Shown here: positions 43,819-52,597 of the stretch, one piece after another | How the letters are laid out: every line of letters begins with the position of its first letter | Position numbering within the stretch: position 1 is the first letter of the stretch | Origin: Candidatus Deferrimicrobiaceae bacterium | GTDB taxonomy: Bacteria; Desulfobacterota; Deferrimicrobia; Deferrimicrobiales; Deferrimicrobiaceae | Reading direction: 5' to 3' | DNA length: 64,000 nucleotides | Assembly: GCA_036504035.1 (NCBI GenBank) | Contig: DASXVV010000014.1 | Span: 62,001-126,000, forward strand | The notes under the pieces: model-generated | What the model saw: only the letters and a program-made list of their open reading frames with translations | Told to the model about the DNA's origin: nothing | Database searches by the model: none | Position numbers and translations under genes: made by a program

Positions 43819-44109
43819 ATGATCGTCCATATCGTTCTCTTCAAGCTCAAGGATGGGTCGCCGGAAAGCGTTGATTCGGCGCGCGGGGTGCTCGAGGGGC
43901 TTCGGGGCAAGATCCCGGTCCTGCGGTCGCTCGAGGTCGGTGTCGACATCCTGCGCACCGAGCGCTCATACGATCTCGCCCTGACCGCCGTCTTCGACTC
44001 GCTCGACGATCTGCAGGCGTATCAGGTCCACCCCGCGCACCAGGAGGTGATCGCGTACATGGGGCGGGTGCGGGAATCCGCGGTGGCCGTCGATTATCGG
44101 CGTCCCTAG
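43819..44109 (+). CDS. Dabb (stress-responsive A/B barrel) domain protein
   Basis: This 96-residue dimeric ferredoxin-like protein has the family opening IVHIVLFKLKDG, the middle YDLALTAVFDSLDDLQAYQV and HPAHQEVIAYM. The biochemical role of Dabb proteins in bacteria is mostly unknown. The AAAGGAG site is eight bases before ATG 43819 but only two before ATG 43813, so 43819 is preferred. Its stop overlaps the stop of ilvN in the sequence CTAG. Confidence 0.85.
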   Translation: MIVHIVLFKLKDGSPESVDSARGVLEGLRGKIPVLRSLEVGVDILRTERSYDLALTAVFDSLDDLQAYQVHPAHQEVIAYMGRVRESAVAVDYRRP

Positions 44110-44378
44110 AAGAATTCCTGAAGACGGGTGAACGCCTCATGGCCGGCGTCGTGGCGCCGGACCTCCTCGACGTCCACGAGTTTCCGGACCTGGCGCACCA
44201 CCTGCTCCAGGCGGTCGTCTTCATTGACGAGCAGCCAGATCCGGCTCTTCCCGTCGTCGTGTCGCAAGGGCATGCAAAGGATCCCCTCGACGTTGTAGGC
44301 GCGCCGCGAGAAGAGGCCGCAGACGTGGGATATGACGCCCGGATGGTTGGAGACGGTCAGTTCGAGGACGGCGTTCAT
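44106..44378 (-). CDS. ilvN: Acetolactate synthase regulatory subunit
   Basis: This 90-residue protein is a single ACT domain (LELTVSNHPGVISHVCGLFS, RRAYNVEGILCMPL, IWLLVNEDDRLEQVVRQVRK). It matches E. coli IlvN in length and sequence rather than the longer IlvH type, and mediates valine feedback on the catalytic subunit. Its ATG overlaps the ilvB stop. Confidence 0.94.
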   Translation of the reverse strand: MNAVLELTVSNHPGVISHVCGLFSRRAYNVEGILCMPLRHDDGKSRIWLLVNEDDRLEQVVRQVRKLVDVEEVRRHDAGHEAFTRLQEFF

Positions 44379-46048
44379 TGCGGCTCCCCTCCGATCATTG
44401 TCGTGTTGGCGGCGCCCGGCGGCACCATCGGGTAGACGTTGTCCGACGCGTCGACGGGGACCCGGACCAGGCAGGGACCGGTTCGTTCAAGGAGGCCGGC
44501 CAGCGCATCACGGGGGTTCCCCGCGGTCGAAAGGTCGATTGCCGGGATCCCGAACCCCTCCGCGATCTTGACGAAGTCGGGTTTTGCCTTGAAGTCCGAC
44601 GCGAAATACCGACCTCCGTAGAACAGCTCCTGCTGCTGGTGGACAAGCCCCAGCGCCCCGTTGTCGGCCAGCAGCACCTTCACGTTCAGCCCCTCTTCGG
44701 CAGCCGTCGCAAGTTCCTGGATGTTCATCAGGAGGCTGCCGTCCCCGGTGAAGCAGGCCACGGTGCGGTCCGGCGCGGCCAGCGCGGCGCCGATGGCCGC
44801 GGGAAGGCCGAACCCCATGGTCCCGAGCCCCCCCGAAGTGAGCCACTGGCGCGCTTTCGAAAAAGGCCACGCCTGGGCGGTCCGCATCTGGTGCTGGCCG
44901 ACGTCCGTCGCCACGATCGCGTCGTCTCCCAGGATGCGGGCGGTTTCCGAGATCAGGCCATAAGCCGTCAGGGGATCCCCTTGCCCGGGCAGCCTGATCG
45001 GGTGCGAAGACCGCAGCTCCCGCACGCGTTCGAGCCACGCTCCCCGGGCAGGGGACGCCGCTATCGGCAGCCACGCCTCCAGCACTTCCCGCGCGTCGCC
45101 GACGATCCCGATGTGCGCCGCCCGGATCTTGTCCAGCTCGCTTTCGTCGATGTCCACATGGATTATTCGCGCACCGGGGCAAAATTCATTGACCCTCCCG
45201 GTGGCCCGGTCGTCGAAGCGGGCGCCGACCGCGATCAACAGGTCGCATTCCTGGAGCAGCATGTTGGTGAAGCGCGCGGCGTGCATGCCCAGCATGCCGA
45301 TCGACAGCAGGTGATCGGCGGGGATCGCCCCCAGCCCCAAAAGCGACGTGGTGACCGGGATGGCGCACGATTCCGCGAGGCGCTTCGCGGCCGGGGCCGC
45401 GCCGGACTGGATCACGCCGCCGCCGAGATAGAGAACGGGGCGTTCCGACCCGGCGATCCAATCGGCGGCCCGGACGGCGGCGGCCCGATCGAAGGGAGGC
45501 GGCCCTTCGGGCGCGCCGGGCTCCGGCCAGCTCAGGAATTCGACCGTCCCGGCCTGGACATCCTTCGGCACATCGATGACGACCGGTCCGAGGCGGCCCG
45601 AGGACGCGATCCGGAAGGCGGCGGGGATCACGTCGAACAGCTCCGCGACCGACCGGACCAGGAAGTTGTGCTTCGTGATGGGGACGGTCAACCCGTAGGT
45701 GTCGATCTCCTGGAAGGCGTCGGTGCCGATCAACCCGGTCGGCACCTGCCCCGTGATGCAGATGACGGGGACAGAATCGAGCTTCGCATCTGCGATCGCG
45801 GTCAGCGCATTGACCGCTCCGGGTCCCGATGTGGCGAAGAAGACCGCGGGGCTTCCGGTAACGCGCGCCATGCCCTGCGCCATGAACCCGGCGCCCTGCT
45901 CGTGGCGTGCCAGGATGTGGCGGATCCGCCGGCTTCGGGACAGGGCGTCGTAGAGCGGGAGGTTCGCGCCGCCGGGGATGCCGGCTACCGTCCGGATCCC
46001 CTGGCGTTCCAGCAATTGGACGATGATCTGTGCGCCGTTCAGTCGCAT
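44375..46048 (-). CDS. ilvB: Acetolactate synthase catalytic subunit
   Basis: This enzyme makes acetolactate or acetohydroxybutyrate for branched-chain amino acids, using thiamine diphosphate and FAD. The 557 residues include TVAGIPGGANLPLYDALS, the catalytic Glu50 in ILARHEQGAGF, ITGQVPTGLIGTDAFQE and the thiamine motif GDGSLLMN to LADNGALGLV. Start 46048 has a GGAGGAGAAGG site; the ATG at 46087 is upstream of it. Pairing with a short ilvN marks the IlvBN isozyme. An upstream Val-rich leader peptide and terminator indicate control by attenuation. Confidence 0.95.
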   Translation of the reverse strand: MRLNGAQIIVQLLERQGIRTVAGIPGGANLPLYDALSRSRRIRHILARHEQGAGFMAQGMARVTGSPAVFFATSGPGAVNALTAIADAKLDSVPVICITGQVPTGLIGTDAFQEIDTYGLTVPITKHNFLVRSVAELFDVIPAAFRIASSGRLGPVVIDVPKDVQAGTVEFLSWPEPGAPEGPPPFDRAAAVRAADWIAGSERPVLYLGGGVIQSGAAPAAKRLAESCAIPVTTSLLGLGAIPADHLLSIGMLGMHAARFTNMLLQECDLLIAVGARFDDRATGRVNEFCPGARIIHVDIDESELDKIRAAHIGIVGDAREVLEAWLPIAASPARGAWLERVRELRSSHPIRLPGQGDPLTAYGLISETARILGDDAIVATDVGQHQMRTAQAWPFSKARQWLTSGGLGTMGFGLPAAIGAALAAPDRTVACFTGDGSLLMNIQELATAAEEGLNVKVLLADNGALGLVHQQQELFYGGRYFASDFKAKPDFVKIAEGFGIPAIDLSTAGNPRDALAGLLERTGPCLVRVPVDASDNVYPMVPPGAANTTMIGGEPQ

Positions 46049-46110: not shown

Positions 46111-46151
46111 AAAAAAGAAAACCCCCCGACGGCGCCTCGCGCCGCGGGGGG
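46111..46151 (-). terminator. ilvBN attenuator terminator
   Basis: On the minus strand a GC stem of CCCCCCG plus CGGCGC pairs across a GAG loop with GCGCCG and CGGGGGG (one bulged T), followed by TTTTCTTTTTT. It lies 33 bases after the leader-peptide stop and 63 bases before the ilvB ATG. Seven bases of its 5' arm (46138-46144) are complementary to the last codons of the leader (46188-46194), giving an alternative antiterminator pairing. Confidence 0.88.
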
Positions 46152-46184
46152 TGTTGATGACTCCGGATTCGACCGGATACCCGC

Positions 46185-46286
46185 TTACGGCGCGCACGCC
46201 TCGGCTACGCATACGGATACGGATACGGATAGGACAACGGTGGAGCCGCTGGCCGGGGAAAAACCGTCGTTTGCGTAGTGCGCCAT
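46185..46286 (-). CDS. ivbL: ilvBN leader peptide
   Basis: This is a 33-residue reading frame (ATG 46286, TAA 46185) between the predicted promoter and the attenuator. Residues 17-27 read VVLSVSVSVCV: six Val and one Leu in eleven codons, four of the Val codons being GTA, which is unusual in this G+C-rich sequence. It ends EACAP, like the NAP end of the E. coli ilvB leader. Ribosome stalling at scarce Val-tRNA would uncover the antiterminator and allow ilvBN transcription. A GGAG lies 13 bases before the ATG, rather far. The gene symbol is by analogy. Confidence 0.8.
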   Translation of the reverse strand: MAHYANDGFSPASGSTVVLSVSVSVCVAEACAP

Positions 46287-46330
46287 TGCGGGATCGGTTC
46301 TCCGTGCTTGTTTTACTGACTGGTAGTAAA

Positions 46331-46359
46331 ATGATGACAGATAAAACAAAGTGGGTCAA
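46331..46359 (-). promoter_or_regulatory. Promoter of ilvBN
   Basis: On the minus strand TTGACC (46359-46354) and CATCAT (46336-46331) are separated by 17 bases. Transcription would start near 46324, 38 bases before the leader-peptide ATG. Confidence 0.6.
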
Positions 46360-46384: not shown

Positions 46385-47388
46385 ATGCGTTGCTTTGCCA
46401 TGGACCAGGCGTTCGGCATCGAAGGACTGAAGATGAAGGAGAGGGAGGTTCCAACGCCCGGCCCCGGCCAGATCCTGCTGCGGATGAAGGCCGCGTCGCT
46501 CAATTATCGCGACCTGCTCGTCGCGTGCGGCAACTATTCGCGGAGCCTTCCGTTCCCGCTGGTGCCGCTTTCCGACGGCGCGGGAGAAGTGGCCTCGACC
46601 GGCCCGGGCGTGACGCAGTGGAAGCAGGGAGACCGGGTGGTCTCGACCTTCTTCCAGGACTGGGAAGGGGGCGAGATCGGAGAGCGGGCCGCGAAATCGG
46701 CGCTCGGAGGGGCGCTCGACGGCGTCCTGTCCGAATACGTCGTTCTCGGGGAGCGGGGGGTCGTGGCGCTTCCGGCGGGCCTGACCTTCGAGGAAGGCGC
46801 CACGCTGCCGTGCGCCGCGCTGACCGCCTGGCACGCGCTCCGGAGCGGCGACCTGGCCTGCGGGGAGAGCGTGCTGACGATGGGATCGGGCGGCGTCTCG
46901 GTCTTCGCGATCCAGTTCGCTAGAGCTTCAGGCGCCCGGGTGATAGCCACGACCGGGAGCGAGGCCAAGATCGCCCGGCTGCAGGCGCTCGGCGCCTCCG
47001 ACGTCATCAATTACAAGACGGAGCCGAACTGGGAAGCGAATGTGCTCAAGGTCACCGGCCACCGGGGAGTCGACCAGGTCGTCGAGGTGGGAGGTGCGAA
47101 AACGCTGGGAAAGTCGCTTAAGGCCGTTCGCCCCGGAGGACATGTCAGCCTTATCGGGGTGCTGGCAGGCGGGGGGGGAGAGGTCAATCCGTTGCCGGCG
47201 GTCATGAAGGGCGTCCGGATCCAGGGGATCTTCGTCGGGTCGCGCGAGATGTTCGAGGCGATGAACCGGGCGATCGTACTTCACGGAATCAAGCCCGTCG
47301 TCGACCGGGTATTCCCGATGGCCGAGGCGCCGGAGGCCTATCGGTATATGGAGAGCGGCGCGCATTTCGGAAAGGTCGTGATCGCGAT

Positions 47389-47392
<4 letters not shown>
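46385..47392 (+). CDS. Zinc-type alcohol dehydrogenase / quinone oxidoreductase (MDR family)
   Basis: This 335-residue MDR protein has an N-terminal GroES-like domain (PGPGQILLRMKAASLNYRDL, SDGAGEVASTGPGV) and a Rossmann domain (VLTMGSGGVSVFAIQFARAS, ARVIATTGSEAKIARLQALG). The residues that bind catalytic zinc in classical alcohol dehydrogenases are not evident, which favours a zinc-free NAD(P)H quinone/enone reductase. ATG 46385 follows a GGGGGAGG site. In-frame ATGs at 46331/46334 lie in the divergent ilvBN promoter and were rejected. Its stop overlaps the uup stop in CTAG. Confidence 0.88.
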
Positions 47393-49332
<1,940 letters not shown>

Positions 49333-49444
49333 GGATGCTCCTCGATCGGTTAATTTTTCATTTTCCATCGCCCAGGCCGATTTCGCAACTCGACGTCGAA
49401 AGGAATAATGTGCGGTATTCTGCATCGCGTGACCCGAACAGGAC

Positions 49445-51680: not shown

Positions 51681-51858
51681 GGCTCCCCATTCCGGGGATG
51701 GGCCGCCGCTGATCCCGGTGGCCGACAAGCGGGGTACCTCACCCCGTTTCCCCGGATCACCTTCGAGGATCGCAAGGAGGAAGCGGAACCGATTCCCCCC
51801 CCCAACAATACCCCCAGCAAGGAACCTCTTCCCGTGCCTTGGCCCCGCTTGCTCCCCC
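51681..51858. other. Degenerate stretch before the integrase remnant
   Basis: No convincing gene is seen. Short open frames (for example from 51675 and 51718) give Pro- and Arg-rich translations without family features. The sequence contains a run of nine C near 51800 and probably represents scrambled or deleted ends of the mobile-element remnant. Confidence 0.5.
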
Positions 51859-52508: not shown

Positions 52509-52597
52509 TGGTGCCGAAGGGGGGATTTGAACCCCCACGAGCTTGCACTCACCAGACCCTGAATCTGGCGCGTCTGCCAGTTCCGCCACTTCGGCAC
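52509..52597 (-). tRNA. tRNA-Leu (anticodon CAG)
   Basis: A class II tRNA read on the minus strand: acceptor GTGCCGA/TCGGCAC (with one further pair), anticodon stem CCAGA/TCTGG with loop TTCAGGG, long variable arm, T arm with GTTCAAATC and encoded CCA. The anticodon CAG occupies 52559-52561 and reads CUG, likely the most used Leu codon here. Confidence 0.96.

Follow-up and report, generated by a model that had tools for sequence, protein, structure and literature searches.

A probable ivbL-type valine attenuator upstream of acetohydroxyacid synthase (AHAS) isozyme I genes in a Deferrimicrobiaceae bacterium

In the 64,000-nucleotide stretch of Candidatus Deferrimicrobiaceae DNA analysed here (the window), an ilvBN operon is preceded on its own strand by a short valine-rich reading frame and a terminator-like hairpin. 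What do these elements do? An original prediction, made from the DNA letters, saw in them classical amino-acid attenuation as at enterobacterial ilvB. Reading the minus strand from 46359 to 46048, one meets in turn a candidate promoter, a leader ORF, a hairpin with a U tract and the start of ilvB. The features, with the operon's two genes, are as follows:

46331-46359, minus strand: promoter-like site TTGACC-17-CATCAT, from a consensus scan (9/12 matches, extended -10 with TG)
46185-46286, minus strand: ivbL-like leader peptide ORF of 33 codons, from base-level reading and counterparts in relatives
46206-46238, minus strand: regulatory codons VVLSVSVSVCV, from codon reading
46180-46194, minus strand: predicted antiterminator 5' strand, CGCGCC (46194-46189), bulge GTAA, GCGGG (46184-46180), from duplex prediction
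46138-46148, minus strand: terminator 5' arm segment CCCGCGGCGCG, common to terminator and antiterminator
46111-46150, minus strand: intrinsic terminator, a GC-rich hairpin (46150-46122, -25.0 kcal/mol) with U tract (46121-46111)
44375-46048, minus strand: ilvB, AHAS isozyme I large subunit, 557 aa, starting MRLNGAQ (NCBIfam NF006016 / PRK08155)
44106-44378, minus strand: ilvN, AHAS isozyme I small subunit, 90 aa (NCBIfam NF006036 / PRK08178; Pfam ACT_AHAS_ss)

The leader, the terminator and the operon

The promoter, also part of the prediction, is a sigma-70-like candidate by its match. The leader runs from an ATG at 46286 to a TAA at 46187-46185; the full peptide is MAHYANDGFSPASGSTVVLSVSVSVCVAEACAP and its C-terminal part, up to the stop, ...VVLSVSVSVCVAEACAP. 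The coordinates and codon content first given for it are correct at base level: codons 17-27 (GTT GTC CTA TCC GTA TCC GTA TCC GTA TGC GTA) comprise six valines, four of them GTA, and one leucine, with no isoleucine. GTA is indeed rare, as had been said (4 of 152 valine codons in four window genes). The terminator stem begins where it had been placed, 33 nt beyond the leader stop, and the hairpin is followed by TTTTCTTTTTT.

Both subunits of the downstream enzyme exceed NCBIfam equivalog cut-offs (ilvB, 925.8 bits against 870; ilvN, 143 bits against 128), and the ilvB start at 46048 reads GGAGAAGGAA-ATG. At the threshold used, PRK08155 finds a match only in E. coli among 14 control genomes, and the closest named relatives of the window ilvB include enterobacterial AHAS-I loci (58-61% identity); PRK08155 and PRK08178 are therefore taken as models of E. 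coli AHAS isozyme I. Judged by these matches, the operon that the leader would control is an AHAS-I ilvBN of the E. coli type. The asserted likeness to enterobacterial ilvB thus extends to the enzyme, an orthologue of enterobacterial AHAS-I, and enterobacterial leaders have the same layout. Elsewhere the genome carries another ilvB, 44% identical, directly after an ilvD-like frame and before ilvN- and ilvC-like frames; no Val-rich leader is found at this ilvD-ilvB-ilvN-ilvC cluster. On the other side of the promoter the neighbouring gene (46385-47392) lies on the plus strand, and the ABC-F protein encoded at 47389-49425 (minus strand) is closest to Uup (739 bits, below the NCBIfam Uup cut-off of 900).

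Leaders and terminators across ilvB loci

A sceptic might see in the valine run a GTATCC microsatellite of an untranslated region, with an unrelated terminator nearby by chance. The run is in part a 6-bp tandem repeat (TRF gives five copies at 46202-46231), and the nearest SD-like GGAG stands at a long spacing, 13 nt, from the leader ATG. Against this, valine richness of the same degree (at least 6 per 11 codons) is confined to the leader among the 286 window ORFs of 20-60 aa, and a minus-strand terminator cannot be that of the upstream gene, which is divergent, so that it has no other obvious client.

Comparison speaks against chance. One automatic rule, asking for a leader with at least 6 V/L/I in 11 codons and a terminator after it, was applied to the DNA upstream of 31 AHAS-I loci, which belong to the phylum of the window and to enterobacteria, betaproteobacteria and Opitutaceae, and upstream of 97 further ilvB loci. 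This combination is present at 28 of the 31 AHAS-I loci, which include near-identical enterobacterial and same-genus loci and are not 31 independent cases, and at 10 of the 97 others; these ten are all gammaproteobacterial, have IlvL-like leaders, and serve as a positive control for the rule. Taken singly, a terminator within 400 nt is found at 29/31 AHAS-I loci and a leader with at least 4 Val per 11 codons at 25/31. (A non-redundant set of 21 loci was used for the pairing and codon tests described below.)

The leaders themselves are, for example, VVVRAVVSVVVGH (Azospira), VVAVGVSPVGVVRSVRV (Accumulibacter), LVSLVVVNVVLVLVVKV (Opitutaceae) and, running to the stop, AVVVVRVVVVVGNAP (Escherichia); with diverged enzymes of 50-52% identity come VVLTVVVVVVDAP, again to the stop (Myxococcales), and LVTLVVSVVVVVD (Fibrobacteres). 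Leader plus terminator also occur with the more diverged relatives from Fibrobacteres and Spirochaetes. Nearly every AHAS-I relative thus has a Val-rich leader at this position, free of the repeat, and the comparison of relatives that had been proposed finds valine codons and hairpin kept with the AHAS-I operon across phyla. The microsatellite reading is rejected on this conservation, as extremely improbable. There are exceptions: a Myxococcales locus (L061) has a terminator lacking the T run, and in a Pseudomonadota MAG with AHAS-I (L044) the leader is lost, leader and terminator looking degenerate, while its Accumulibacter sister (L033) retains both. At another locus (L130) two Val/Leu-rich short ORFs lie in tandem before ilvB, each with its own GC-rich hairpin and T run behind it, possibly a double attenuator.

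The AHAS-I model finds matches at E <= 1e-200 in 24 of 395 sampled genomes of the phylum (11 above the cut-off), and AHAS-I is absent from the other genomes of the same genus or family listed in that sample. In a tree the window ilvB groups with proteins of one other family within its phylum (f41; fork support 96/89), and an Opitutaceae protein joins them next (support 97/94). The AHAS-I proteins of betaproteobacteria and enterobacteria fall into a separate group, which also takes in one member of the phylum. Distribution and tree would be explained equally by transfer and by patchy loss.

Rfam has no family at gathering threshold in the window leader and none that is relevant at permissive thresholds; the Escherichia ivbL locus (L038) is likewise without a match above gathering score. 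A Rev39_5p_UTR match at the Azospira leader was discarded (23 bits, far below the gathering score of 88). The loci assembled here, about 30, offer a comparative set for a cis-regulator that has no Rfam model. Elsewhere in the window int-alpA RNA (RF02996) scores above gathering at 51691-51768 (plus strand) and 52512-52595 (minus strand), with a tRNA gene at a distance of about 0.75 kb; the region may mark an end of an integrated element.

Predicted pairing between leader end and terminator arm

The prediction proposed a fold switch through complementarity of the leader's last codons to seven bases of the terminator's 5' arm. The seven bases are there, 46194-46188 (CGCGCCG) being the exact reverse complement of 46144-46138 (CGGCGCG), but the predicted antiterminator is longer. 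It has 11 bp in two segments (6+5; 46194-46189 with 46143-46138, and 46184-46180 with 46148-46144), takes in five bases 3' of the leader stop codon, carries that codon in its GTAA bulge, and has a duplex energy of -21.9 kcal/mol. The window's complementarity alone is unremarkable for its GC content (17% of shuffles are as good); what makes it convincing, as a feature read from sequence, is its position and the comparison with other loci. When a 14-nt window is slid along the leaders of the 21 non-redundant loci and its pairing with terminator 5' arm plus loop is computed, the mean energy reaches its minimum, -13.4 kcal/mol, right at the stop codon of the leader, as against -5 to -7 kcal/mol at 75-110 nt upstream. 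Many loci share the helix form GCGYCG-UA-GCGGG, in which the bulge is the UA of the stop codon. In three loci (L032, L041, L125) the reading frame runs past the pairing site and the RNA segment is nevertheless still there; it is thus the RNA, not the stop, that is conserved. Leaders pair better with their own arms than with swapped ones (mean -22.3 against -18.9 kcal/mol, with 0 of 20,000 permutations as low), a test that is partly confounded by relatedness and in which the window's own pairing ranks 12th of 21 arms.

How the ribosome might enter into this was examined by folding the RNA 3' of it codon by codon, with an assumed footprint of 14 nt. In the pre-terminator RNA, 11-12 antiterminator pairs are predicted with the A site at codons 16-27, three remain by codon 31 and all are gone at codons 32-33; the antiterminator persists up to the last valine codon, V27, and is lost between codons 28 and 32. 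Folding predicts the same course for the Escherichia locus. Once the modelled A site reaches the stop codon, the arm takes up six alternative pairs again in the window fold. A 1:2 protector hairpin is present in the full fold, but the pre-terminator RNA folded without a ribosome shows no clear one that would hold back the antiterminator. When the full-length RNA is folded to equilibrium the terminator wins every time, so the switch would depend on timing during transcription, a view commonly taken of classical attenuators.

The proposed sequence of events is conditional at each step, and we infer transcription start, leader translation, stalling and read-through alike. RNA polymerase would start near 46324 and transcribe the leader with a ribosome behind it. 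With ample charged Val-tRNA, the ribosome would pass the valine codons, reach the stop and cover 46194-46180; the antiterminator being blocked, the terminator (46150-46111) would form and ilvBN would not be transcribed. Should Val-tRNA charging fall, the ribosome would stall at codons 17-27, leaving 46194-46180 to pair with the emerging terminator 5' arm and allowing read-through into the AHAS isozyme I genes.

Would a terminator controlled by a protein, or by an RNA switch independent of translation, with the short ORF incidental, do as well? Folding of the 5' region does beat shuffles (z -4.07), though the terminator hairpin itself explains much of that energy. A perfect 7-bp inverted repeat (TTTTACT-ACCAGTC-AGTAAAA, 46331-46311, minus strand) immediately beyond the -10 of the divergent promoter between ilvB and the alcohol dehydrogenase gene, overlapping the expected transcription start, could be an operator; a genome search for its TetR-like form finds no further copies. 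Such control is very improbable as a replacement for the leader, given the lack of an Rfam family at gathering threshold and the valine codons that relatives share shortly before the switch helix. A protein operator could, on the other hand, act in addition to the attenuator.

We therefore read the element as a transcription attenuator that works through the ribosome, like that of E. coli ivbL-ilvBN, with a probability of roughly 0.93. Sequence and comparison establish what this reading builds on, namely the leader, the terminator, their complementarity at the stop codon, the link to AHAS-I in several phyla and a switch point that folding predicts at the last valine codon. The claim of classical attenuation is supported by conservation across phyla and by the fold-switch tests, and the switch itself is backed by position-specific complementarity, by the own-versus-swapped comparison and by ribosome-position folding. 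The attenuator very probably turns the operon on under valine shortage.

Valine codons and known attenuators

Which amino acids would be sensed? As a refinement compatible with the attenuator, it might respond more broadly to branched-chain amino acids, valine plus leucine, rather than to valine alone. The run holds one rare leucine codon (CTA), leaders of relatives mix both residues, and the E. coli ivbL leader answers to both, lowering reporter expression on valine or leucine feeding (PMC11187965). This broader sensing is possible, if on the unlikely side: one leucine codon stands against six of valine, with no isoleucine, and valine should therefore dominate.

Codon choice is itself distinctive. 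In the 21 loci GTA accounts for 40 of 132 leader valine codons (30%) and for 52 of 775 (6.7%) in the same ilvB genes; the Fisher p value of 6e-13 overstates the case, since codons within one leader are not independent. GTG is depleted (17% in leaders against 52% in the same ilvB genes), and the direction of the bias is widespread among high-GC loci. Constraints of RNA pairing or composition could contribute. That regulatory codons are chosen by isoacceptor charging is published theory (PMC1183508), which the GTA enrichment makes testable in high-GC bacteria; if leaders are selected for particular valine codons, this is the signature expected when isoacceptor charging tunes sensitivity. On balance we lean towards a joint reading, in which the ivbL-type attenuator is an old and widespread companion of AHAS-I that travels with the operon (in several lineages of the window's phylum, betaproteobacteria, Verrucomicrobia, Fibrobacteres, Spirochaetes and enterobacteria) and in which leaders are selected for GTA and GTC over GTG. 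The wider distribution and the codon-choice signature are the parts that merit follow-up.

A 2004 comparative study by Vitreschak and colleagues reportedly covered proteobacterial attenuators, mainly those of gamma- and alphaproteobacteria. Our literature search found no such attenuator for deltaproteobacteria, Desulfovibrio or Geobacter, which is weak evidence, subscription journals being mostly outside its coverage. In Actinobacteria a leader peptide and terminator lie upstream of ilvB (PMC1262725; Corynebacterium ilvBNC, PMC11857589), like the window in these two elements, by description, but in a different phylum. The Caulobacter crescentus ilvBN attenuator, as described in PMC4117421 (citing Tarleton 1994), has a leader with tandem isoleucine and valine codons and a rho-independent terminator; the likeness, again by description, is qualified by isoleucine codons besides those for valine and by an alphaproteobacterial host. 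IlvL of gammaproteobacterial ilvGMEDA works on the same principle, with a mixed Ile/Val/Leu leader (VISLVVISVVVIIIPP) and another AHAS isozyme.

The closest counterpart is E. coli ivbL-ilvBN, with an orthologous enzyme, a leader of about 32 codons ending AP-stop, a valine run just before the leader end, a terminator 20-33 nt past the stop and complementarity between leader end and terminator arm (GCGCCG:CGGCGC). Enterobacterial AHAS-I leaders as a group (AAVVVVRVVVVVGNAP, then stop) resemble the window's in length, AP-stop ending and, roughly, terminator distance. The window differs in that its valine codons are mostly GTA and are interleaved with serine and cysteine, with one leucine, and in that terminator and antiterminator are more GC-rich, the second antiterminator segment (GCGGG) being longer. 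The textbook valine attenuator would extend well beyond the enterobacteria.
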